Made by a program: the position numbers and the translations under genes | From: Diphasiastrum complanatum | Lineage: Eukaryota > Streptophyta > Lycopodiopsida > Lycopodiales > Lycopodiaceae | Direction of reading: 5' to 3' | Assembly: GCA_029204225.1 (NCBI GenBank) | Contig: CM055113.1 | Coordinates: forward strand, 9,696,364-9,760,363 | DNA: 64,000 nt | The notes under the pieces: generated by a model | What the model saw: the letters and a program-made list of their open reading frames with translations, nothing else | Databases searched by the model: none | What the model was told of the DNA's origin: nothing | Part shown: positions 1,837 to 53,900 of the stretch, piece after piece | Numbering within the stretch: the stretch's first letter is position 1 | Layout: every line of letters starts with the position of its first letter

Positions 1837-3540
1837 TTCTCTGAGCAGCTGGCTTCTCTTGGTTTGTCTATTCAACCTCGCAAGTGTTCAGTGTGGTCTC
1901 CAGCAAGTCTTCCCTCGGACTTTGTTCCTCCTCAAGGTTGTCTTGCTCCTTCGGATGGCATTCGCATTCTGGGTGTTCCTTTTGGGTCTGCTTCCTTCAG
2001 CTCTGCTTTTATTGGTGAGGCTCTCCAGGAGGATGTTGCTCATTCAGATCTGCTTCCCCGGTTGGGCGACACTCAGGTCGCGTTTGGCATCTTGACGTCT
2101 TGCTTTATCTAGTGTCTTTCTTATCTGCTGCGGACTTTCCCCCCTACTCCGGATTTTTTGCATTTCCTCTCTTCCTTTGACAACTCTCTTATGAATGTTT
2201 TTGGCCGCTTTGGGCCCAGGTTCTTTGGATGGTGTGGAGACCCTTTCAGCTCAGAACCAGGCTCGGTTACCCATTTCTTGTGAAGGTGTGGGTCTTCTCT
2301 CTACGGTTTCTTCTGCACCTGTAGCTTTTCTTGGGAGCTGGGCTCTTGTCACCTCTGCTTTGTCTTCTCGGTTCCTTTCTTGCTTTCGCCCTCTCTTGGC
2401 GGATTGCATTGCTCATGTGGATAGCGGTTCCCTGCCTTTCCAGCACCTCCTCATCGCTGCGCGAGAGCTCCTCCCCCTCTCTGCCCAAGCTTGTCTTCCT
2501 CCTTTTGAGCAACTCCTCACTTTCACCTCAGATCACTTGCAAGAGACCCTCTTGGAGCGCGTGCACAATCATACCCTTTCCAGCATGCTCTCTGAGGCTC
2601 CTTCGGTGTTGCATCGAGCTCGGCTTCTTTCTTGTGCGGGTCCTGGTGTCGGGGCTTGGCTGTCAGCTCGGCCTTCCTTTCGGTTGCTTCGGCCATCTTC
2701 ACCACTACTCTTCGTCTTCGCTTGGGGCTTCCTCATCCTTCGGTCTTGGGTCTCTCCAGATGAGTTTGTGGTCACCCTATTGATGCTCTTGCTATCCACC
2801 TCATCCGTTGTCCTTCTGGGAGTGAGCGCACAGCTACGCATGATGTTGTCAGAGATGCAGCGGCCGCTATAGCCAGAGATGGAGGATTCCATGTCCTCAG
2901 GGAGCAGTCTCATGTACTTCCTTCTTCTGCGTCCCACTCTTCTCGCAGGCGTGTTGACATTGTCCTCTCCCGGGATGGGCTTTGTACTTTGGTGGCAGAT
3001 GTTGTTGTTGTTGATCCCACGCGTGGTGACTTATTGCCTCTCTCTGCCTTCACACTAGGAGAAGCGGCAGACGTGGCAGCACAAGAGAAGGAAAAAAACT
3101 ACTCTGACTGGCACCCCACTGATGCTTTCCTTAAGGCCCTTGGCTATTGAGACTTATGGCACCTTGCATCGACGCTTTGAGGATTTTCTTCGCATGTGTT
3201 CTCATCAGGCGGCAGAGCGTCAAGGTATTCCTGGTTCTATTCTTGTGGCTTCTTTCAAACAACGTGTTTCCATTGCCCTGCAACGTGCTCAGGCCCTATC
3301 TATTCTGCAACGGGCGACGGTGGCTGGGTCTGCTACATCTCATCTCCCTTCATTAGCCGACTCACCCCTCTTCACTTTTCTGATCTGCTGTAGTCAATTG
3401 TTTGAGCCTACTTTTGCTTAAACTTCTCCTTCGGGGTGTATATATCTTTTTCATCAATGTACCTACTACTTTTTCCTATAAATAAATGCACCAGGGTTAA
3501 CAGATATTAAGGAAGGTGAAGTAGCCTGACTTGTATTTTT
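1837..3540 (+). mobile_element. LINE-type non-LTR retrotransposon remnant (3' half of ORF2)
   Basis: The forward strand encodes, in shifting frames, the C-terminal half of a non-LTR retrotransposon polyprotein. The first part (1837-2112) has a 'GLSIQPRKCSVWSP' stretch followed by 'GIRILGVPFGS', as in the end of LINE reverse transcriptase palms. A long second part (2195-2760) is Leu/Ser-rich with 'VAFLGSWAL' and 'RARLLSCAGPG'. Around 2770-2820 another frame gives a C-G-H...H...C zinc-knuckle-like cluster, then 'RRRVDIVLSRDG' near 2950. At least four stops or frameshifts break it, and its 5' end (endonuclease and the RT core) is missing. It belongs to a different LINE family from the intronic copies at 36-52 kb. 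Role in the host: none expected; it is a decayed copy. Confidence 0.75.
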
Positions 3541-34015: not shown

Positions 34016-37000
34016 GTGGTTGTTTTCCTCCTCGCATGCATCATTCATTCACCTTCTTTCAAGGATTGTATCTGACGTTCTGACTATTTGGGTATCCATT
34101 ATCGTTAAAGTTCTTTGGACTAATCTATTATGCCAAGGAAGGATATAGTCAGTCTTTCAAGCCCTACAAGCAATAGCAGAGGACTAATCTACCTACTGAC
34201 TAAAGAAAGACTGAACCAGATTATAAGCTCTTAATCAACAAATTCAACCCTATATCATTTCGATCAAACTCTATGACTGTTTTGTGTTTATGATGTGCAC
34301 ATGAATAATTGAAAGGTATTTCGCTTGCTTTTGTCTATGAATAAAGTTGCGAATCTTAATTGTTTTGTGCAGTGAGTGATGGACACACAAGATTACCCAA
34401 GTATAAGAACACCCCACATGCCTTGTACACAATTGCACGTTCAGAGGTAGGATTGGAACTAGCTCCTGTACACATTTTTTGATGCAAGTGTACACGACAT
34501 TTACCTTTTTTTGAGTAGCCAAGAAATCCTCAAAGACTATGCTTGTATCAACTAAGCAATAATAATTTTGTGAGCAATTTTTATATGTTAATAGTATTTG
34601 TCGATTTTTAACAAGTTTTCATGGTTTGTTATATATGAATGGCTCATTTGTGATAATGTTCAAGCACAAGTAGTGCATCCAATTTTACAAGCATAAAAAA
34701 AGTGCAAAGCATCTCCTGGTGAAAGATGATTCAAGATATTATTATGGTAAAAAAAAGTGACTAATTGAGATTTGTCTAGAGCTATCAATTGTGAGATAAT
34801 GTTCAAACTTCATGCTAACAAGCTTACAATCAAGCCATGAGAGTCTTGACATTTGTGAAGAAATACCACAATATACACTAGAAAGCACTATCTTTCATGC
34901 TAACAAGCTTACAATCAAGCTATGAGAGTCTTGACATTTGTGAAGAAATACCACAATATACACTAGAAAGCACTATCTATAAAGGTGGCTATGATTGATT
35001 TGTCACATTTGCTGAAACATATCAGTGTTTGATTTGCACAATGCAAACTAATTTGAAATGGCTCTCAAAAATAGAACCTTTGGATGGGATCTCTAAAAAA
35101 TCAAGTTTTGGCTTTTGTTAAAACAATGACAAGTTATGGTGTAGGGTTTAGGGTGTGAACTACAACGTCACAATGCAATTACTTTGTAGAGCGATTGTTG
35201 CGCCGATGCCTCAAAGGGCGTTGGGACTTGAGCAGTTTCTCCAAGACACGCTTAAGTCTAATATTCATCCGACATGAACTCATTGAGAAGCAAACTTAGA
35301 AAACGCAACAAGCCTAACCATTCAGATTTAGGAAAACAGGAATCCCAACCAACCCGAAAGCCAACTTAGAATTTGTTCCCAAAAGATAACCAAAGGCAAA
35401 GACAAGTCACTCATGAAATCCTAAAGCATAGTGGTCGCCAAACTGACCAAATGGCATAGCGGCGGGCCTCACATTGGTGACGTACCCTTAGGCGCCAACA
35501 ACGCAAAAAGGTTGTAGTAAGGGTCCTTCCACTTGGACCAGTCCTGGAGGTGAAACTGAAATGGTAATCATCCCCAAGTATCAATCTTATCAAATTTGGA
35601 AGAGGTTACATTCATACATAGATTGACTGGTCTCGGGGCCACCAACACGTGTTGGGCATTGTGCCTGGCTCGCGCTGGTAGAGGGAGCTGAGACCTGGCG
35701 ACTGGATTCCTGGCGCTAGTTGAGCTGCCCAAGTTTTTGTCTGCTGGACTCCCCCTATAGTTTTGCTGTGATTCGGCGCGGCCCCTTTGTCCTGGAATAT
35801 AGTGTGGTCTGGTAAAGCACACTTTTTTGGATTTAGTTTTTATTTGCTGATTAAGCTTGGCAGATTCAGTCTAGCTTTGGATTTGGATCCCAGGAGTTGT
35901 CCTGGTGGGCAAAATCAGCTTGGCTCCTGGACATGGGTCCCAGGAGCTGACTAGGCCATGACTCGAGCTCTAGAGCTAGCTTATGACTTGTGACTACTTG
36001 ATTGGCTCACCACAAGTCGGAGGCTCAGTCCTTGACTTCCTAACTGTTACCTGGGTATAAATTGTTGATTCCTGAATCATAGATGTTGATTGGTCAGTGG
36101 CTTCAATGCTCAATGTGACAAACTTGAACTTGAGAAGAGTATACGAAATCCCATCTGTACCCTGGGAAAGTAGGTAGTCCTCTCTCCTCATGAGTCTCCA
36201 TGAAAAGCAAGAAATCTCTACCAATGATGAAATCAATTAGGTCTCCAGCTGGGGATGATGAGTGTATACCGTCACAGTTCCATAATCCAATCTTGAGATG
36301 CTGTGGATGGGGCTTAGGGGCTCTCCCGAACCCAGGGACCCCAAATCCCTAGCATTGGGAGCTGCTAGGAGCACTATAAAAAAAGTGCACCCGCCCATCT
36401 CGATAGATAGCCCGTCTGCCAGACTCACGAGCCGCCTAAAAGGCCTTACGCCTCTCCTCCACCTGGATATAAGTGAGGTCGTCATCCATATAGATAGTGG
36501 TACCATGTAGCTTAGCTCTGCACTGCAAGGCCTCTCTGCGACTCTCCAAGGAGGGCGGATGATAAGTTTGTGGCTGCATCTTTGGTAGTCTTCCATGCAG
36601 TATCTAGTCTGTCGGTCCTGTGCCCTAGGGTGATGTCGAGGAAGCGTTTGGCTTCGTCCATGGCATTTTGTGTATCTAGGATCCCACAAACCCTAATGTT
36701 ATGGGCTTTTTGGTTTTGAGATCTCTCTTCGAAATGGTGGCTGAAATGACTGATGAGATGGGAGCACTCGGTTTGGTGCCTTTCTTCAAAACCGATGACC
36801 AAGAAAGGGCCTCTTCTTTTTGCTTCTTAATCTTGTTTTCGAGTTCCCGTATCATTGTGCCAGTGAACTCCGAAACTGCAGCCTGCTTGGTTCCAATTGA
36901 TTGCTCGAGTGATGTGACTTTTGCCTGCAATAGGTTCTTCTCATTGACCAAAGAGGTCACGAGCCCCTTCGGCATTGCAATTTCAAGCTTCGAAGTATGG

Positions 37001-37284
37001 AAATCTGATCAATCTGCCAAGCTGAAAAAAGTGCAATTGATTTCGAGGGTGTGTACGGAGGAATACTTATTGTAGGCTGTGATTCTTGGAGGGAAGAAGA
37101 ACTGGCAGCAGTAGAAATGATAGGAACGGGGAGAAGAGGAGCAGTTCCAGGAGGAGTAGTACACACGGAGGAGGCGGCCACAGGCAGGGTAGGCGCTGCC
37201 ACACAGGCAGACAACGCTGCCTACGTGGCAGCACCGCCACATCAGCAGGGGTGGGGGAGCGGGCAAGACGGCGAGGAGGAGGCT

Positions 37285-37342
<58 letters not shown>

Positions 37343-40300: not shown

Positions 40301-43300
40301 CATGTTATGAATTTAATTATATATATTGGCATCAAGTAAAACAGACATTCAAAAACCATTCTCCAACTAAGAAACTTAATGCACATCAATGGCTATTGAT
40401 AGCTCACGATAGATCTCCAACCATAGATGCAGCGCGTTTCTGAAACGCGTTTCAGAATCGCGGTCAGAAACGCGGTTCAGAAACGCGTTTCTAAAATTTT
40501 CCAAAAAATTCTAGAAATGTTTTTTTTTATATATATATTTTTTGATTTTTTTTTTTGGGCAATATGGGTATCAGATGAAAGCTCTAATTAAGAGCATTAT
40601 TACTGTGTAGTTTGCCGAATGGTTCGGGTGCATTAACTCCCAGGTTTCGCTATATCTCCTTTTAATATAAAAAATTAATAAAAAAACGCACCTCAAGATT
40701 GATACACATAGGGCAGAAATTTAGCGGAATGAAGGACACATGCAACTCTAGATTTCAATTAAAAGCTTTGGAGCAGAAATTGGTCAGCACAAGTAGGCCA
40801 TCAAAACATGGGCGGTGGTCGTCCTTATAAAAAGGAAGATGGTAAGACATCTCCTCAAATGTCAAAGTCCATTGGAGCCACTATGTCTGAAGAAAAATCA
40901 TGGGAACAGAAGAGACATAAAGCGAGGGTAACATGCCCTTTTTAAGGGGCCAAACGATTATTGGAAAATACACTAAGCCACCATTGCCAAGGGGTAGAGC
41001 GAGCTTGGAGAACCAAGAAGGATAACGATACCTTGATGATTTGTTTTGATTCTTTGGAAGGAACAAGGTCAGTATCATGTCTAAAAGCCAAGCTAATAGA
41101 GACACACATCTTTTTAGACGATGATCTCATATATATGCAAGTGGAAGAACGTAGGAAGGCCTTTCAGGAAGTCAAGACCCCAGACAAGAGAATAATTTAT
41201 AAATTACAGAGATGGGGGCAAATGAGATACATAGATGGGAATAGCAACAGGAAATAGGCAATTGGGTCCTTCGGGTATGGGAGCAACATGGGGACCTACC
41301 TAATCCATTGAGAATTTGGAGGAATTGTAGTGGTATACTCAACAATGTGGGATTTGAGAGACTTTGTGGATAGTCGGGATATCCTCGTCTTTACAAAGGC
41401 ACATGAGAGCCCAGAGCGAGAATTATTTTATTTTTCAGGCTTCAGATGGGAGTCAGTTTACAGAGCAGAGACTAGATCAGCCAATGGATGAGGTTTTGGT
41501 GGGTTGCCTTGTTTGTACAGGGACACAACACAATGGGGGATACAGAGATGATCAGGCGAGATCTATGTGGATTAGACTATGGGGATCGAGCATAGGGTTG
41601 GACAAAGATACTTATCTCACAACTTGTTATTTCGCCCTAGACACTTGTGCATGTATTGAGGGAGTGGGCTCACCTTACACATACTTTTTCACTTGTCAAA
41701 GAGAGGCATGTTCTCTTGATGGGTATTTCTAATGCTAGGATCGAGGCAGACAACGTCTCATGCAACAGACCAAGATTCCTTATGTATTTGGGCACTAGAC
41801 ATTGAGGATTTGGGTATTACTAGACATAGATGGACCAATCACATGTTATGGAGAGCATTTTCTACTGCTTGGGGAAGCGCATGAGTTAACCATTTCTTCA
41901 GGTGACTTTACTTGCTAATTGCATAGCGGTGGACATAGCGTGGTCAACTTTCTCATGAGATCACCTTCTCTCCTCCCTTGGATTACAACTTTCAATTCTC
42001 GTGGTAATCTCAAGCAACATGTTTTACCAGACTTTTGGTATATCTATATTTCACCTTGCAAAGGGTACCCATTAGTGCATTCGACGTTTTCATTATATAC
42101 TTTATATTCAAAGAGCATGGGCAGCTAGGTGTAAAACTACTCTACTACAGGTCATATTTCTTGGAGCTAGACACAATAGGATGCCCTAGGCTACCTCGGT
42201 ATCTAGACATCAGTTTATCCGATGGCAGCTCTGAGTCTCATCTCACCAACTTTGCATAGAGACAGGTCGGTTCCAGGGCACACCATGGGAGAGCAGGATT
42301 TGTAAGATTTGTACATTGGGCTTGTGTTGGATGAGGAGCACTTCATTATTCAAATGCCCTATATACTTTGACATTAGACATTACGACATATGACAATGTA
42401 TTAGAACAAGACATGGTATCAAACGAGAAGATAGCCACAAATACACAGGAGGGTAGGTCATCGAGACATACATTCATGGCCACCATCTAGACAGGGATGA
42501 CATCATGAGAAGCCTCCAATACAGACCACCACTATCATTGCTTTCTTGAACTGATTGATAGTCGCATGAGAGTGTTTTTTGAGCATATCATGGCTTAGCA
42601 TATTGTTATTGGACTTGTATATACATTATATGTACTACATTTTTGAGTGGGAGGAGATTGAGCTACTTTAGAGATATGTTGTTTTATTCAACTATTTCCT
42701 ATGGACATTTTTTTTGTACACCCTAGTTTTTACACACTTGAGATGTCTGCTCTTTTTGTCTTACGTACCCAAGACATCAATAAAGGTTTCTTTCTAGTAT
42801 AGTACATGGTTAGACAAGACATCAATAAAGCTTTCTTTCTATTACAATACATGGTTGTAGGTTTAAGGTGCTAGACTCTCTCACAACTAGACTCACCATG
42901 GGTGCTCCACTTGATCCCTTGACAAGCTAAGCTACTCACTACTTGTGAGGGTGTTTTGTGCCTAGTGAGCAAGCAAGGAGAGAGCATGGAGGTAGAAGGG
43001 TTCCATGAATGAATCATGATGGATGTTTGTAAAGTAGATAGTTGAACCTTTTCAATGGTGTCTAGTGTATCTACTTAAGCTCATTGTCATGTGAATGCAT
43101 GATGAATCATGATTATCAATTATCCTTCTAAAATTGTAATATGTCAAAGGTATTTCAAAAGAACTTTGACACACAGTGAAATCTTATGTCAACTTGATTG
43201 AATTGTTGAAGGTAGCTCTACAACCAATGACCTAGACAAGGACCAATTATATGCGATAACCATCGAGTGCCAAATAAGAGGCCAACCGTGATATAACCTT

Positions 43301-46300
43301 GGTAACCGTAAATGATGAATCATGGGAAAAAGAAACCCTTTGATTTTTTGGCGGAGCCTTGAAAGTAAAATTGATTGTCTTAGGCCACCCAAGAATTGCT
43401 TTTTGGTCAAGTTTTTTGTACCATTGAGGATAAAAGTTCTCTTATTTACCTATTTTGTTTAGTGAGTATAGCCAAAGTCCAAAAGATATTCACTAAACTA
43501 CAAAAGTTTGGCAAAAAAAGGAAAGGGCTCCCCTTTGTTGCTAGAGGAGTGGGAAGCTAGGACAAGGATGGGGCTAGAAACAAGTACAACCTTGAGGGAG
43601 GAAGGAGGGGCCTTCTATGAGAGTTGTAGATTTGCTAGCAAGGAGAGGCTTATGGATGATAGTAGAAGCATTTAGGTAGTATAGTGGTTTCAATGGCTAA
43701 GAGGAGAGGGGGATAAAGGGAGGGAGGTGTAACTTCTCATAATACTTTAAAATATTTTAGTTGACTTTTACAATTCCCAAATCATACCCTTATAGTTTGT
43801 TTAGCTACAAAGCCAAATAGTTTTAGAAAGTTATTTCTGTTGTTGAAATATGCATAGTTTTCTATTTAACTCTTCAAAATTCAATCAAAAGGTAGTGAAT
43901 TGTTTTAATTTCTTATACATATGCATCGTGTTTGGCATGTATAGCAGGGCTTGAGAGGACTATATGCTGGGCTTTTTCCTGCAATACTTGGCTCAAGTTT
44001 GTCATGGGGATTATATTTCCTATTGTAAGCTCTTCTCACTAGCTATTAATCTTTTCTATTTTGAGGTTGTTATATATGAGAGAGAGAGAGAGAGAGAGGA
44101 CGCTTTGTTAACGTTTTTTCCATGCCAAAAGGCATATAAGACAAAACTGTACATCACATAAGATGGCAACCAACGGATCAATGCCGTCAAAGCAATAGAA
44201 TTAAAACCAAAACTAACTAAGAAGAGATTTTATAATCCTGGTACGTAGACCATTTAACAAGTCAAGTGGACATCTCTTCATTTCTCTAACTCCGGTTCTA
44301 TCTCAGATTTCAAACTCTCGTTAATAGCATGAGATTTACGGTCTACAAATCAGATAATTCCATCACGATAAATAAGTCACTTTCCAATTGTGATAGCTTT
44401 TTGTCTCTTTTTTCCGTTCTTGCATGTGGACGAAGGTAAGATCTTCGTCCAAGTAAATTTTGGTATCCTGCAAGTTCATGCAATGGTCACAGCTTCTCGA
44501 GAAAATTAAAGTGTTTTTTAAAGTTAAACAGGCCTTTGGCCTGGTTATCTCCCAGACTACATCACCTATCACTACATGTACGTACTTAAAAGCACAACCT
44601 GCACATGTTTAGATCGGTTTTGCCATTGGTTAAACATAGTCCTCATCATTCCTACTTGGTTTTATGAGGACTCTGATGAAGGTTCTGAGTTTGTGAATGA
44701 AACTGTGTCTCTGCACTAGCACTTCACGACGGTAACACACTGAAGTGAAGCGTATGACAAAATAATCTGGATCCTTCTTAGGCTGGTAGGTAGTTTCCAT
44801 ACCTTGGTTGTGATGCTGGAGATTCTCTTCCAAGATGCCGCTGCAGACCTTCCCTCGTCCTCGAAAGCTAAACCACATCATCAGCATATAATAGAATAGT
44901 GATAACGAGGTCACCCAATGTTCATCCCTCACCTCCCTCTGTCTGTATAACCTGCTCAAGCTCATCTATATGCAAACCAAAGAGTGTAGGTGAGAGAGGA
45001 CATCCCTGCTTAACCCCCCCAATGGTACTCTCTATCGCTGGTGATACAACTCCTGATACTCGGATCCGGCCAATAACTCGTCTGTACAATGCCACAATTG
45101 CCTGTATGATATCCTCCTGGAAGCCACGGTCCTGAAGTCTCTGTATCAGTAAATGTTGAGGCACAGAGTTAAAGGCTTTGCGGAAATCCACAAAGCAGCA
45201 GTATACACACTCTCTCCTGGCCTTAGCCTCCTCAATGATGGATCTGAAGGTGAAAATATGATCTGATGTAGTATATCCTGGTCTGAAACCTGCCTGACCT
45301 ATGGCATGTAGTGCTCTGGTATCCATCTCTGTACTGATCTCTGACTGAAGAATAGACCAATAAACCTTGGCAAAGAGGTGGCTGATCATGATGGTACGTT
45401 AGTTGTCGGCTTTCATGGGATCACCGCCTTTATGGATAGGATGAATAAGGTTTGTGGACAAGGGGAGGGGAAACCAGATGTGATAGCGCGGTTAAAGAGT
45501 AAAGAGAGGAAGGGTGAGAGGATGTCAGCGGCCTGCTTCAAAAGTTCAGCCTGTAGATCATCAATGTCTTTGGCCTTATGTAGGTTTAATCGGTCGATGG
45601 CCTCTTAGCCTTGCCATCCCGATAAATTACCCTCTTCCCCAAAGCTTTTGCCTCACTGAATGCTTTTTTCCGATCCGCAACTAATATGGGAGTGAGATCA
45701 TCATCCATAAATATAAGTGTACCTCTAAGCTTGGCCCACAGTTTGAGGGTTGCCCGTCTCTCTTCCAAATTCGTGAAGCGGACTATGAGTGTAGAAGGGT
45801 CTCTCTTGGTTCTCCAAGCTCTATCCAACCCTTCGGAGTGGTGGGAGAGTGTGCTTGAAAGAAAGCTGGCTGCTTCGATCATTGGATCGTTGGTGTCTTC
45901 AACTCCGCGGACCCTAATATTCAGGGATTTGTACTCTCGCATTCGCTCTTCGGATATGGTGGCTGAAATGACTCGGTTGAAGGATGGTGTACCCTCCTTA
46001 ACATCCTCCTTGAAAAGAGAAGCCCACGATTTCGTCTCAGCCTTATGTTGCTCTATCTTCTCTTCCAGCTCTTGAATCTTTGTAGGTTCTCCTTGTTTAC
46101 TTATTGCTGCCTCCAAAGAAGTAATCCGGGTTAACATGATCTCTCGTTCAGCGGCCATTGATTGAATGATCGTTTGAAGCTGTCCCATTTCCTTTCGTAG
46201 AGAGGTGGATTTGTTTTTGATTTGCTCGATGTAAGAGAAAATGTATTGCTCAAATGACTTGGCAGGTGTGTAGATCTCGGGTATCAAGAAAGAGGAGTGA

Positions 46301-46813
46301 GCAGGTGGAGGGCAAGGAGTGTGGATTGTAGGCAACACTGACTCCCTCACCTTGCGTAAGGCTCCATCTGTAACAGCAGTAGTACCATCATTAGGGCTCT
46401 GAGCAGCATCGGAAACAGTTGCAAAAGAATTGGAAACAACAGTGATGGACTCTGTAGCGCTGGTGGAGAGCGAAAAAGGTACTATTTCAATGATGGGATC
46501 TGCAGCGCTGGTGGACAATGGAGGGGAATCTGTAGCGCTGGTGGAGATAGTACTGATGGGGGATGCAGCGTTGGTAGACCCTGAGTCTGCATCGGTGCTG
46601 TTGGTCAACAAAGAGGGGACCAGCGATGAGGGTGATGGAGGGACCAGCGAGGAAGAGTCATGGCCAGCCAGTGATGGAGGTGAAGGATGGGCTAACATGG
46701 AAGTAGCCTGGACACGGGCAGAAGTGCGTGGGGGGAGCGTGGGCTCCCCTTCCCTTTCTTGGCCATAGACAACGGTAGAGAAGAAGTGAGGCCCTACAGT
46801 AGCGCCATCTCCC

Positions 46814-46844
<31 letters not shown>

Positions 46845-49800
46845 GAAAGAAAGAAAGAAACCTTTATTAATGTCTTTTCCATGCCAAAAGGCATATAAGA
46901 CTAGTAAATGTACATGTCAATATGTGGTAACCATAGGAGCGTATGAAACGTCTCCAAAACAGTAACAAAAGTAGCAAGTCTAGAGCTAAAGCTATAAACT
47001 GAAATAGATGTGATGCTATAAGAAACAAGTGGGAGCATGTATACTGCTAACAGTCATGAGTGAGGTATGACGCTATCATCTAGTCCTGTCCTGCTGGTGC
47101 TGATGCTATAGAAGGATGTTATACGGCCTGCGGCATGAAGGGCCACTAGTGGTCTTTGACGTCGTCTGAGAGGATGAAGAGGTCTCCTCGTGATAGGTCG
47201 AGTAGCTCGTGCTGCAACATGGGTATGTGTGAGACGCTGTCTCTGGTCTCTGTGGGCAAGTAGGTCATCATCATCATCGTCGTCACCGTCATCAAATCGT
47301 CCTCTCCTCCTGAAGAAGAAAGAAGTGATCTGAGGCTGAGAAACCTGAATCGGCTGGGCTGTTTGATACAAATCCTGTCGTAGTATAAACATCTCTCGTA
47401 TCATGAGTGCCGCGCATCGGGAATCCTCATAAGCTATGAGCGATCGTAAGGTGATTGGTGTGTCTCGGAACAAACAGTGGTATCGCCCTCGGATCTCGTA
47501 GTATACCGGGCACCTAAAGATAAAGTGCTCCTCTGACTCCACCTCCTCTAAAGAGCATAACTGGCAAATCCGCTCCTCTCTCGGGGTACCCTGGAATCTA
47601 CCAGTCTCAATAGCCAACTGATGTGATGACACGCGGAGCTGTCCCAATGTAAATCTGAGGCAATGTGATAGTCTCGAGTCCAAATAATGCGGCAAGGCCG
47701 GGAACCCTGCTATGTCAAGCTCAATAAAATGAGTCCAGTAGTAGCCGGGTTTAACCCCAAGCTGTCGCCCCCAAGTACGGTCGAGATATGCCCGATATAA
47801 GATGCGCCTGATATACTGATGAGTACCGAAGGGGAGCTCTGCGAGAACCACGATAGTCGATAACCCTGGTCATGAAGAAAGTGTGAGGAAACAAGTGTTG
47901 TCTGTGTATATTTGTGAATGTATGTGATAAGCTGGGACGCGACATATATCTGAATAGGTGGAACGACAAACTCTGCAAGAAGGATCTCATGTGGAACCAA
48001 GGGCTTCGCCCGAATCATACGAGCTAACATGGTGGTCTGCAATCGTGAAATGTTGGCCCAATGTGATGAAGGGAGGCCGGTACACCATGTCTCTGCTGCA
48101 TATAAGGCTGTGGGGGTGACAATAGTATCAAAGAGTCTACACTTACTGCGAGCATCTCGGATGAGCTTCCTGCAACAGAACCGCTCAAGCTGAACAAGAG
48201 AGGTATTCCCCTTCCCAAATCGGGTGGTGGCAGCCTGCCGCATGCTGAAGGTAGGACCAGAAAAGAGTATCCCCAAATAGGTATAAGAGGAAACTACCTC
48301 TAAGGTCTGTCCATCTAGGATGAGCTCTTGGCGCTGCATGAAGGCTCGAGAAGTGTTGAAGACCATAACCTTGGTCTTCGCAGTGTTCACCCCCAACCCC
48401 CATCTGGCACAAAATCCCTGTAAACAATCCAGCTACCTCTGCAAACCCTCTCTGGTCGGGGATACTAGTACTACATCATCCGCATAAAGGAGAATAGCAA
48501 TTAGAATTGTGCCAAGTCTACAGCCACCCCCGCCACACTGTGAGATGACTCGCTCTAACTCATCAATATACAATCCAAAGAGAACCGGTGAAAGAGAGCA
48601 CCCCTGTTTCACCCCAATGGTGCTCCAAATGTGATCAGATAGGCCACTGCTATGTCGGAAACATCCCAAGACCTTCTCATAAAGAGCCATCACTGCTAAA
48701 ACAATATCTGTGGAGAAACCAAGGTCACGAAGTCTCTGAATGAGCAGGGAGCGTGGTACAGAATCGAAGGCTTTACTGAAATCTACAAAACAGCAGTAAA
48801 CCCTCTCTTTCCTGTACTTAGCTTCCTCAATCAAGGCTCGAAGTGTAAAAATATGGTCAGTGGTGGAATAATGAGATCGAAAACCTGCCTGCCCCAATGC
48901 ATGTAATCTCCGAGCTTCCGCCTCTGAACTCACTGCAGACTGGAGTATGGTACCATAGAGCTTTGTGAGAACATGTCCGATCATGATGGTGCGGTAATTA
49001 CCTGGAATCATGGGATCACCATTTTTATGAATAGGGTCGATGATGTTGGTGCATCAGGATGAGGGGAAACCAGAGACAATGACGGAATTGAGGAGAGTGG
49101 CTAGTGTGGGAGCAAGGAGGTCGGAAGCATGGGTTAGGAGTTCAGATTCAAGGTCTTCGATATCTCTTGCTTTATGGGACTTCATTCTCTTGATGGCCGT
49201 AAGTACCATGTCAGATGTGAAGAAGGTGAACTTAGAGGGGCGTGGGGAGATAGAGATGGGTGCGTCAGTGGGTATGGTATATAGTTTGGTAGCATATTCG
49301 GTCCATATGCGAAGGTCATCCAGGAGGGGTGGTGGAGCACGAGGGATAAACTCACGCCAAAAGGCGCCTGAAGAGGAACTGAAGAGAAGATCAACAAGAC
49401 GCGTTCCTTCGGAGTCATCATAGATACCCTTTTTTCGGCGGAGTGTGTGACGGGAAGAGCGCCTGACGGAGTGGAGGAGATGAGGATCGTGAGTGCGGGC
49501 ATGGGTGACAAGCTGATGAAGAGAGCGACATTCAGCATCATACCACGGGGGGTGTGTGGGTCGTATCGATGAGGAGCAGGTGCCTATGCTTTTATGGGGT
49601 TTAGATGGAAAAGCAAGGGAAGCAGCGGTATGAAGAGAAGTGCTAAGAAAGGCAGCTTGAGTCTCAACTTTACTATCGTGAGGGAAGGAATGGAGCAAGG
49701 AGGTTAGGAACTCCTGGTAGACTGTTGTATAGAGAGAACTGAATGTATACCTGGGTGCCCGTGTAAGCAGGGGGTGTGAGGATGGCTGGGGAGGTGGGAG

Positions 49801-50893
49801 GCGGCCGATAGCAAAGGAGAGAAAGGAGTGATCAGAGAGAGTGGTGAGAGATACATGAAAATCAGAGATGTGAGGTATGGAAGATGGTGATCCCATGAGG
49901 TAATCCACAACACTATGTCCACCACTGTGAGGGTGACAAGTATAACTGCCGGATTTTGGCCAACAAGTTAGGCCATTGTAAATGGCTAACTCATGGGCCT
50001 CTCCAAACTGCAACAAATGCTCACCGTAAGGGGTAGTAGGTCCCAAGTTGTCCTCTGAAATCCTGGTAACTCCCATGTCATTGCTGTCAAGGGCATGAAC
50101 GCGGAGCTGGTCGGTGATGTCACAAAACTCTGATTGCCGTGAAGAGGTTCGGGCATTAAAATCCCCAGTGGGGAGAATATGCCCCCGCTCTGCGAATATG
50201 ACAATATCAGGCGATAAATCAAGGTAGGGTGAACCTGTGCCCTCAGCAAAGGACGAAGGCTCTGGAGGAAAATAACATGCCGCCACAAAGAGGTCCCTGT
50301 CTAAACCAATATCCTGCCCAGCAATATGAATCCATATATACCGTGCATGCTCGTCGCGTCTGATGAACTTGATGCTCGGATGAAGAGACTCTCTGTATAA
50401 ACATGCAACACCTCCGGATCCACGACCGCTAGCTGATCTAGTCTCAAGTTTGTACATGGAATCCCATCTGTATCCCGGGAAAATTAGCAAGGGGGGGTGA
50501 GGGATCAGCGAGGGGGTGAGGTGAGGGGGCAGCGAGAGGGGGGGTTGGGGTGGCAGCGAGAGGGGGTGAGGAGGGTGGATGAGTGGAGGGGTCAGCGAGG
50601 AGGATGGGTGAGGGGGTGGCATCTAGGAGATTGGGGAGGTCAGCGAGGGGGAGGGATGGAGCAGTGAGGGGGGAAGGAGAAGGAGAAGGAGCAGCAAGGG
50701 GGGAACGGGAAGGTGCAGCGAGGGGGTTAGGGGAGTGGTGAGCGAGGGAGGTGAGTGAGGAGGTGACTGGGGAGCGTGAAGATCTGCGAGCAGGGGCGCG
50801 AGGAGGAGGAGGGGCCATGGTGGAGGGCGGACCAGGGCAGGGCAAGGGCAGGTTCTAGGACAGGGCAGCCATCGCTAGAGAGGAGCAGCCATC

Positions 50894-50962
<69 letters not shown>

Positions 50963-53900
50963 CCAAGATGTTCCAAGTGAAGAATACGGCGAAAGTGCTT
51001 TTTCTACCTAATCAACTCTCAACATTGAAGATGCAAGAGGGTGATACGCTTTCAAATCACTTAATGAAGAAAGAAAGAAAGCTTTATTAATGTCTTTTCC
51101 ATGCCAAAAGGCATATAAGACTAATGAAGTACATATCAAGTATGTGGTAACCATGGGAGCGTATAAACCGTCTCCCAAACTGTAATAAAGAAAACATCTA
51201 GCACAAACTAAAATAGACGCATATGCGAGAGTATGTGTGAATAATAATCCTATGTATCCATGTCAAGATGTCAAGATTGTGTTGATGCTGTAGAAAGATG
51301 TAATGCAAGCCGCAACATGAAAAAGCGCTGGAGCCTGCTAGCGTCGTCTATGAGCATGAGCATGTGTAGTAGTACGTCTTTGTGTATGATGTCTGGTGAT
51401 CCTGGCGGTAACGTGATGATGGGAAGTCTATCATCCTCATCGTCGTCATAATCCTCATCCTCAGGCACTAAATCATGCGATCTCCGCCTACTAAAGAAGG
51501 AAGTAATCAATGGCTGTGAGGTAAAATGCTGGGATGTCCCGTATACATCTCTCTGCAATATGAACATCTCGCGTAGCATCAGAGTGACACATCGTGGGTC
51601 CTCATAGGCTATGAGAGAGCGTAGAGTGGTAAGCCTGTCTCGAAACAAGCAATGATATCGCCCTCTGATCTCATAGTATATAGGGCATCTAAAGATAAGA
51701 TGCTCCTCAGACTCCACCTCACCTAGAGAGCATAATTGGCAAATCCGCTCCTCTCTAGGAATACCATGGAACCTCCCAGTCTCAATAGCTAGCTGATGAG
51801 AAGACACCCTGAGCTGTCCCAGTGTGAATCTGAGGCAATGTGATAGTCCCGAATCCAAGTAGCGTGGCATGACCGAGGTCCCTGATGCATCAAGCTCCAA
51901 GAGATGGGTCCGGTAGAAAGCTGGCTTAACCCCTAACTGGTTATGCCAAGTCCGCTCTAGATATGCGCGATAGAGAAATCGTCTGATATACTGATGGGTG
52001 CCCTTTAGAAGTGATATCTCAGTTGAAACTATGAGTTCCAAACCAATTGTGCATTGTACACACCGAAAAGTCTTGAAGTACGGAAAAATGCTAGTCTGAA
52101 AATAGCTCTACCTATCTCAAAATCTACTAACTTGATTTGAGAAAATTCTTAACTTATGATTCAAACCTACTCTCATAGATGGAAGAATAACAAACACACA
52201 TGAACTAAAAGATCCCAACTTATCATGAGTACGCATTGAAAGAAAACAAACCCAAGAACTCAATGGCAAGCTCCTTAATAAAATTTTTTCTCTCAAACAC
52301 AACCTATTCCATCTTGCAACATATACTACCCAACAATAAGGCTCTCTCAAGTTGCAAGTAAGCTCCAATGATTACCCTCACTTTCAATTCAATTACTTCA
52401 AAACATCCTTGAACAACCAACACTTAGCAACACATTTCCAACAACAAGTTCTCACCCTCTCCAACATTCACCACACACCACAAATCGACAACAAATGATA
52501 TGTTAACTACCTCTCATCCCAAGAACCTCAATCCAAAACAACTCCATGCTTACAATGCAAGCATGTTAGTGAAGATCAAGCAACCCTCAACCAATCAATC
52601 ATGGAAATGAGTAACCCCTTCTATTCTCAAACAATTTACATCACTCAAGATTTAGCATACTACTCTCTCGAATGATAATGCTAGTATGGGAAGCAATGAG
52701 ACTACAAGACACACAAAGTGAATTTGACCTCCCACCTCCCATCTCCCACACAAAGCACTAGCATGGAGAAACAGGAACCAAAGCATACAACACCTCCATA
52801 CTAAACAACAAGATACAAGAATCCAAGAAAGACTATGGTCTCAACCCAACAACTAAACAACTACAAGACAAACCAAATCTCATAAAGCTCTCCACTCATA
52901 TGAGGCAAGACAACAAGGATCCAAAACTACTAACTCCCAAAATCATCAGCTCCTAAATGTACCAACTCCTAAAAATACTAACACTTGAAATACAAGGAGT
53001 TGGTTCCTTCTTATAGGAAAATCCAATGGATCCCCTTCACAATGCCATCTTGCCATTCTTCTTGCCCTTCAAGCCCTCTTTGCCATTTGTCCCCAACCCA
53101 TTGGATAGTACACCTAGTGGCCTCCATAAGAGAGTGGGGGCGTGGTGCAGTAAAAGCTCCCTTCCAAAACTAGCCAAGATGCCATTTTTGTCAAAGGCTA
53201 GGGAGGCCATTAAAGTTTCCCCTTTTGTACACCCTAGAAGCCCAAAATGTCAATGGCTAGTGGGTGTACCTCCCAATTTTTTAGCCTTCAAGGTGTTTTG
53301 GCATTTATTATTCAAATTTTGGGTGAGGCCCTTTCTCAACCCCTATTTTTAGTAGGCGACCTTCATTTTCCTTTAGGGTAGCTTTGTTTTGGCTTTTCTG
53401 CGATTTTTCAAGGGCCGTGCGCCTATTGCTCATTTTTTTGGGTTTTTGGTCTGTTGGGTAGCCACTTGGCCCGCGTAGTTCGTTAATTGCCCGTAAATTG
53501 CCCAAACTTTGCCGTTAGGGATTCTGTGATTCCTTGACACTGAATCCATATTTCCCGGTCCCATTTTTACTCAAAATTTTCTTTCTCGGTTTTTTCTTCT
53601 ATGGTTGTCTTTTTCGGCATTCATGACTAAGGCTCTCACGACAAAACGGTTTCCCTAAAAAATACACTGAGTGATCATATATTAGTGAAAAATGGACTCA
53701 GTACATGGTGAGATTTTAGCAAGGTCATACCGGCTATTTTTTTACAATTGGCCATTTTTTGGAGAAGCCGTAAAATATTTACCGGCCATTTCTAAGGCCT
53801 CAAAGTTTGCTCTAGCCTCATTTAGGGCGGCCTGGGACCCAGTTCTAGGTGGACTGGCACTTTTGGCTCGGTCTTACGAAACTTGACCATACAAATTATT

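Follow-up and report, generated by a model that had tools for sequence, protein, structure and literature searches.

A LINE family of Diphasiastrum complanatum with a probable, oriented and non-exclusive insertion preference for (CT)n tracts

Why should several copies of a long interspersed nuclear element (LINE) in one 64,000-nucleotide stretch of the Diphasiastrum complanatum genome (assembly GCA_029204225.1, contig CM055113.1, positions 9,696,364 to 9,760,363; hereafter the window, meaning the whole stretch that was analysed) lie between runs of (CT)n? An initial annotation of the window had described such tracts around three minus-strand copies, A, B and D, and a TTTC tail on a fourth, C, and had proposed that the family either targets (CT)n or seeds it from its tail and then accepts new insertions there. 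Our results argue, with good though not full confidence, for a large LINE family with a strong, oriented and non-exclusive insertion preference for (CT)n, the sense strand of the element being the CT strand.

The tracts around copies A, B and D are present as claimed and are part of a wider pattern, and the description of copy C was borne out, its tail being followed by no CT and its 5' end not lying at CT. The stacking of copies B and A likewise stands; copy A, on the other hand, is composite, and the set has to be extended by copy E, which is diverged and lies on the plus strand, giving the following features.

50896..50958, minus strand: (CT)n tract directly 5' of copy B, pure, 31.5 units
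46814..50895, minus strand: LINE copy B, with 5' end, partial endonuclease (EN), reverse transcriptase (RT), C-terminal zinc-finger region, 3' untranslated region (UTR), hairpin and tail (profile matches and homology map)
46872..46901, minus strand: 3' hairpin of copy B, stems GTCTT/AAGAC and ATGCC/GGCAT
46814..46858, minus strand: tail of copy B, (TTTC)n then (CT)n with one G, doubling as the 5' flank of copy A
44100..46813, minus strand: LINE copy A, composite (homology map)
45586-46863, minus strand: open reading frame 1 (ORF1) of copy A, an open frame
44836-45601, minus strand: broken EN/RT part of copy A
44717-44845, minus strand: ORF1-like remnant of copy A, followed by a different 3' UTR that ends in the shared hairpin
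44078..44098, minus strand: (CT)n tract 3' of copy A
51063..52044, minus strand: LINE copy C, 5' truncated, with a non-CT 5' flank and a (TTTC)n tail without CT
37287..37340, minus strand: (CT)n tract 5' of copy D
36141..37286, minus strand: LINE copy D, retaining the ORF1 part and lacking the 3' portion, with the first 300 bases placed by eye
40826..42856, plus strand: diverged LINE copy E, with ORF1, EN and C-terminal pieces and a TTTC tail near 42795 (homology ~40826-42378)

Along the minus strand, ~120 bp of other sequence lies between copy C and the (CT)n that leads into copy B; copy B is joined through (TTTC)n(CT)n to copy A, and a further (CT)n closes the series. Copy B starts with GCGATGGCTGCTCC directly after the tract at 50958-50896, and its 3' end consists of the hairpin, (TTTC)4 and a (CT)n interrupted once by G, which the ORF1 start region of copy A adjoins; copy A in turn ends in the hairpin, AAAGCGTC and the tract at 44098-44078. 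The hairpin has three matches in the window and none in shuffles. That copy D starts directly after its tract is a call made by eye, because its ORF1 homology begins only at 36984, and no CT run of 10 bp was found in the flanks of copy E that were inspected. The window contains 17 CT/AG runs of at least 10 bp; CT is common there, yet too rare for chance to account for the junctions.

The family is a non-long-terminal-repeat (non-LTR) retrotransposon, that is, a LINE: many 5'-truncated copies have a common 3' end, and copy B has a LINE-type reverse transcriptase (RVT_1, 2.3e-22). There are 4111 exact copies of the hairpin in the 1.74 Gb genome; a scan of viral contigs returned no match to it. 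AAAAGACATTAATAAAGC is matched 2215 times forward and 2274 times in reverse. AAAAGACATTAAT with (CT)6 within 10 bases has 998 forward matches, against none for the reversed control; the corresponding reverse count of 3087 is inflated through overlapping matches.

Junctions were read in 47 copies, namely the first 44 of the 100 listed on contig C1 and three from the window, the 5' boundaries being taken from between-copy homology and judged by eye. At the 3' side, a CT run of at least 10 bp begins at most 45 bp from the hairpin in 38 of the 47 and is lacking in nine, with a median length of 60 bp over the 38, some runs being clipped by the 170-base view. The tails parsed by script (38/47) hold 0 to 5 TTTC units. 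Near AAAAGACATTAAT, 22 forms of the join to CT occur among the 48 places listed, one with CT right after ATTAAT, and differing forms of the 3' end join CT directly among these places.

The 5' side is more telling. An end was readable in 35 cases, and not in 12 of the 47 (L016, L022, L026, L029, L030, L032, L038, L039, L040, L046, L047, L048). Seventeen of the 35 abut either a CT tract or an older tail ending in CTCT (L011, L012 (two), L014, L015, L019 (two), L020, L024 (two), L027, L028, L034, L036, L044 and window copies A and B), one of the L019 ends following (TTTC)n with CTCT only; the remaining 18 lie elsewhere (L009, L010, L013, L017, L018, L021, L023, L025 (two), L031, L033, L035, L037, L041, L042, L043, L045 and window copy C). 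By our reading, nine of the 17 CT-start copies are 5' truncated.

The 5' ends at CT-ending tails support the earlier proposal that copies stack in the CT tails of older ones. Head-to-tail joints at tails (e.g. L012, L019, L024 and window B-A) are also what would result if the reverse transcriptase moved from RNA to RNA within one event, leaving copies with tails between them. We give such template jumping hardly any credence, given that the left flank of some CT-flanked copies is not recognisable as LINE (window B and D, L014, L027) and that neighbours differ in type, as do window B and A.

How often would CT be met by accident? The 315,695 fetched bases contain 107 oriented CT tracts of at least 10 bp, a density that counts LINE-linked tracts too, so that for 35 ends, within 20 bp, 107/(2 x 315,695) x 20 x 35 = 0.12 CT-adjacent junctions are expected; the Poisson tail for at least 16 junctions, leaving out the CTCT-only case and assuming random placement, is 8e-29. 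With 17 of 35 junctions observed, a chance abundance of CT is rejected. The junctions are also oriented, in that LINE sequence (as recognised from other loci) lies at most 20 bp downstream of the tract in sense for 14 of the 107 and in antisense for one. The 14 take in joints between neighbouring copies and one tract inside a copy (L040), and the script missed some joints recognised visually, among them the 5' end of L044. LINE sequence lies upstream of the tract in sense for 51 of the 107 and in antisense for none, the figure of 51 being raised by how copies were chosen.

A tract that regularly precedes an element might simply be the element's own 5' UTR, an outcome that the initial annotation had itself set against its proposal. 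The LINE parts that follow CT match reference copies at many positions, 223 to 5014 bp away from the 3' ends of those copies when nested inserts are counted, and this candidate is likewise rejected: CT lies on the sense strand and the 5' truncations fall at differing points, therefore the tract is not simply a 5' UTR. Full-length starts were surveyed across the genome, where the complete listing of GCGATGGCTGCTCC with its upstream bases comprises 33 sites (G at the first place excluded). By script, 18 of the 33 have a CT run of at least 8 bp upstream. By eye, 17 are clean CT (including window copy B; at least three further pairs have alike upstream bases and are possible duplicates), five are CT-rich or resemble a TTTC/TTC tail, nine lie within longer element starts and two are unrelated. 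A second type of 5' end follows CT with an identical junction at six distinct sites, in a search able to find CT-flanked sites only.

Evidence that the tract can predate the LINE comes from a repeat family, Y, of which the left flank of L014 is a member. Its copies (L051-L060 and the left flanks of L011 and L014) have, in our reading, a reverse-strand transposase-like start, MPRDRDPLWDHV, immediately preceded by (CT)n. This tract hosts LINE insertions. The last 14 bases of family Y occur in 168 exact copies; of the 100 listed, 92 continue into CT, as judged by eye, and eight do not, the 92 including one with a CT run of 7 bases only and two that are the filled L011 and L014. When the joined flanks of L014 were used as query, 981 first-look candidates were obtained and 40 of them scored; 39 match up to the CTCTCT end of the query, one stops two bases earlier and none of the 40 extends into the L014 right flank. 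Ten fetched family Y copies run contiguously from left flank through (CT)n to right flank, the right flank being shared with others. L011 has, in order, the Y left flank, CT, an insert of ~5 kb holding the LINE, CT and a Y-homologous right flank, which scores 74, 73, 90, 29 and 65 against five Y copies where the largest shuffle scores are 31, 40, 28, 29 and 28; it thus outscores all shuffles against four of the five and equals the best shuffle for the fifth. L014 has the Y left flank, (CT)52 and a 1.8 kb truncated LINE. Because the Y flanks are contiguous through CT in the empty copies and are separated by the LINE in L011, the tract predates the LINE in family Y. Empty sites with an uninterrupted repeat, as expected of microsatellite-specific LINEs and as sought by the initial annotation, are thus seen for one site family within the same genome. 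At two places, C3:34593700-34593871 and C6:31336590-31336801, a full-length LINE start follows CT less than 200 bases from a Y family end; the two are alike and perhaps duplicates.

It may be asked whether such arrangements arose after insertion, by exchange between tracts acting as recombination or repair hot spots, with LINE pieces joined at CT and no choice of target. The fact that L014 retains one Y flank only would fit, as would the CT within a related 3' region in L036 (by eye, compared with L026) and the differing left ends of L041 and L042, which together are one duplication. The presence of both Y flanks, in order, in L011 speaks otherwise, and exchange leaves unexplained how CT first came to abut many differing truncation points in sense; we consider this explanation highly improbable.

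The initial annotation had also named, as a finding that would count against targeting, non-CT 5' flanks with ordinary target duplications. Non-CT 5' ends exist (18/35); the duplications were not found, none of 17 such copies having a shared flank stretch of at least 8 bp (L013 was dropped because its right flank is too short), and the mean shared stretch was 5.06 compared with 5.33 in swapped pairs (n=17). The non-CT copies therefore do not resemble ordinary insertions with duplications. The left flanks of eight of the 18 (L009, L017, L018, L021, L031, L035, L037, L041) match other fetched loci, and are thus repeats or LINE parts; the L041/L042 flank, looked for as a repeat, was found only in its own two places. 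Some of the non-CT 5' ends look secondary.

Other sequences were noted within or beside these copies. L010 and L021 carry in the LINE, at distances of ~700 and 3445 bp from its 3' end, a tRNA-like repeat (ATTCGAACC, ACCACTGAGCTATC), which resembles a reverse-strand short interspersed nuclear element (SINE). L025 has on its plus strand, ~1680-1730 bp upstream of the hairpin, a related 3' end whose tail is (TTC)n; a truncated LINE comes next. The flanks of L014, L020, L033 and L042 have a recurring motif with GGTTCGAACC / CACGGTTC.

Several observations weigh against an insertion preference for (CT)n. The 18 of 35 readable 5' ends that lie away from CT leave strict targeting unsupported, and the 5' classes were assigned by eye in the first 44 listed copies of a single contig and the window. 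CT is present at the 3' end in 15 of the 17 copies with 5' CT and also in 14 of the 18 without, so that some of the 3' CT may stem from tails. L040, a single continuous LINE copy, contains on its minus strand at 2216-2268 a 52 bp (CT)n that apparently arose there by growth, so that a CT tract is able to grow within a copy. In family Y, L011 is the only filled site with both flanks, homology on its right side is partial, and ~350 bases at the start of its insert, ahead of the second CT tract, were not recognised; the right flank of L014 is not family Y within 400 bases. Finally, the microhomology at CT-LINE joints, in itself a point in favour of the preference (mean 1.37 bp at 15 joints versus 0.41 at random element points; at least 2 bp in 5/15 versus 8% in the control), comes from a small set that includes L040 and in which some joints were back-extended without gaps.

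On such grounds the 3' (CT)n might be made by the element, or later by slippage of (TTTC)n, with 5' CT arising only from landing in older tails or in other CT by chance or accessibility. Many tails are indeed (TTTC)n then CT, and the 14 of 18 copies with CT at the 3' end alone, together with the abundance of CT and its growth in L040, are in keeping with tail growth. We nevertheless regard it as unlikely, considering that 5' CT is far over chance and strand-oriented, that family Y has the tract without the LINE, and that 3' ends without TTTC units also run directly into CT, though later loss could produce the latter. What stands of the original targeting proposal is thus a preference, as judged from the 17 of 35 5' ends, the nine truncated copies among these 17 and the one filled/empty site, and not exclusive targeting. 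Targeting (CT)n and seeding it from tails, which had been posed as alternatives, may act together.

An insertion preference for (CT)n could be brought about as follows. The enzyme would nick the GA strand of the tract, and the U/C-rich 3' tail of the RNA would pair with the GA primer end, starting target-primed reverse transcription, for which the 3' hairpin would be the recognition structure; the other end would be joined within the remaining CT, at times aided by short CT homology. A copy with CT beside its tail would be a further landing site, and same-orientation head-to-tail stacks such as B-A would arise because insertion leaves such a site. More tentatively, and with somewhat less than even confidence, we propose a self-propagating target system, in which an APE-type LINE lands in (CT)n through tail-GA pairing and has its other end joined within that tract. 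Each copy would leave a fresh CT tract beside it, so that the family would multiply its own target and build head-to-tail arrays, and non-autonomous ORF1-type relatives carrying this 3' hairpin would take that route too. Apparently non-autonomous relatives, with ORF1-type sequence and a different 3' UTR, are found at window positions 44100-44750 (minus strand), in L016, in L024 (~2990-3331) and in L034; by our reading they have only the last ~50 bases in common with the LINE, and they may be likened to half-L1 elements.

The 3' stem-loop appears, from the variants compared, to be kept by paired changes, as in stringent-type LINEs. Across 12 variants that we chose, the number of cells changed on both sides and the covariation score were each reached by 2/500 shuffles; the pairs changed on both sides (70/500) and further pair types (253/500) were ordinary. 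A single fold of the 3' end was not significant (z -0.85; 36/200 shuffles equal or better). As to the proteins, the endonuclease match is weak (Exo_endo_phos, 7e-4, 19.9 bits, under the 24.5 cutoff; sole solved-structure match E 1.2), as is that of the C-terminal zinc finger (zf-RVT, 0.032, under the Pfam cutoff). Among solved structures, R2 is the best match for the RT, followed by L1, in reference collections in which R1 and Tx1 RTs are not represented. ORF1 has a coiled coil, its C-terminal part is conserved, and no LINE protein was among its matches to solved structures. CCHC zinc knuckles in ORF1 are a feature of the R1 clade; none was present among the 11 weak matches of the window copy A ORF1, nor among the matches listed for 12 ORF1 pieces (25 of 82 weakly matched families).

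With respect to known systems, Kibi and Koshi, both of the Tx1 clade, insert into (TC)n and (TTC)n, respectively, and the specificity of microsatellite-specific animal LINEs is described as strict. Such elements of the Tx1 and R1 clades were reportedly described by Kojima and Fujiwara in 2004. The present family is like them in its one-orientation insertion into a simple repeat, and differs in that they have animal hosts and strict specificity whereas 17/35 readable 5' ends lie at CT here. Insertions almost only in the target repeat were not observed (17/35 5' and 38/47 3' ends at CT); the family therefore works partly like a microsatellite-specific LINE and is not a strict member of that group.

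Early-branched, Tx1 and R1 clades contain most target-specific LINEs (Kojima and Jurka 2015, PMC4640811), and sequence-specific LINEs are reported chiefly from invertebrates (PMC6530143). Togen, a group of (TG)n-specific fish LINEs related to NeSL (PMC4640811), is alike in its dinucleotide microsatellite target; the NeSL clade is among those with a restriction-like endonuclease (PMC4640811), whereas an APE-type domain is weakly detected here. In plants, the L1-CS LINEs of Cuscuta europaea show a target preference in a satellite interlaced with simple repeats (PMC8091179), and so are alike as plant LINEs with a target preference in repeated DNA, their target being a satellite monomer with TTCTA/TTTCAA sites rather than a dinucleotide tract. 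Celine, a centromeric LINE of poplar with 84% of copies in CENH3-binding domains (PMC11288735), is alike as a plant LINE with regional targeting and differs in that its target is no sequence tract. L1-clade LINEs of plants that have a stringent 3' stem-loop (Ohshima 2013, PMC3747384) are alike in keeping it by paired changes; their stem and tail are different, and CT targeting is not mentioned in the text consulted.

A limited search of the open-access literature found no microsatellite- or dinucleotide-targeted plant LINE. Microsatellite-preferring LINEs are already known from animals. If the preference is as we propose, a LINE family that numbers thousands of copies in a plant and prefers (CT)n in one orientation would lend itself to the study of target choice by endonuclease and RNA tail, and would offer a reason for CT microsatellites and LINEs occurring together.

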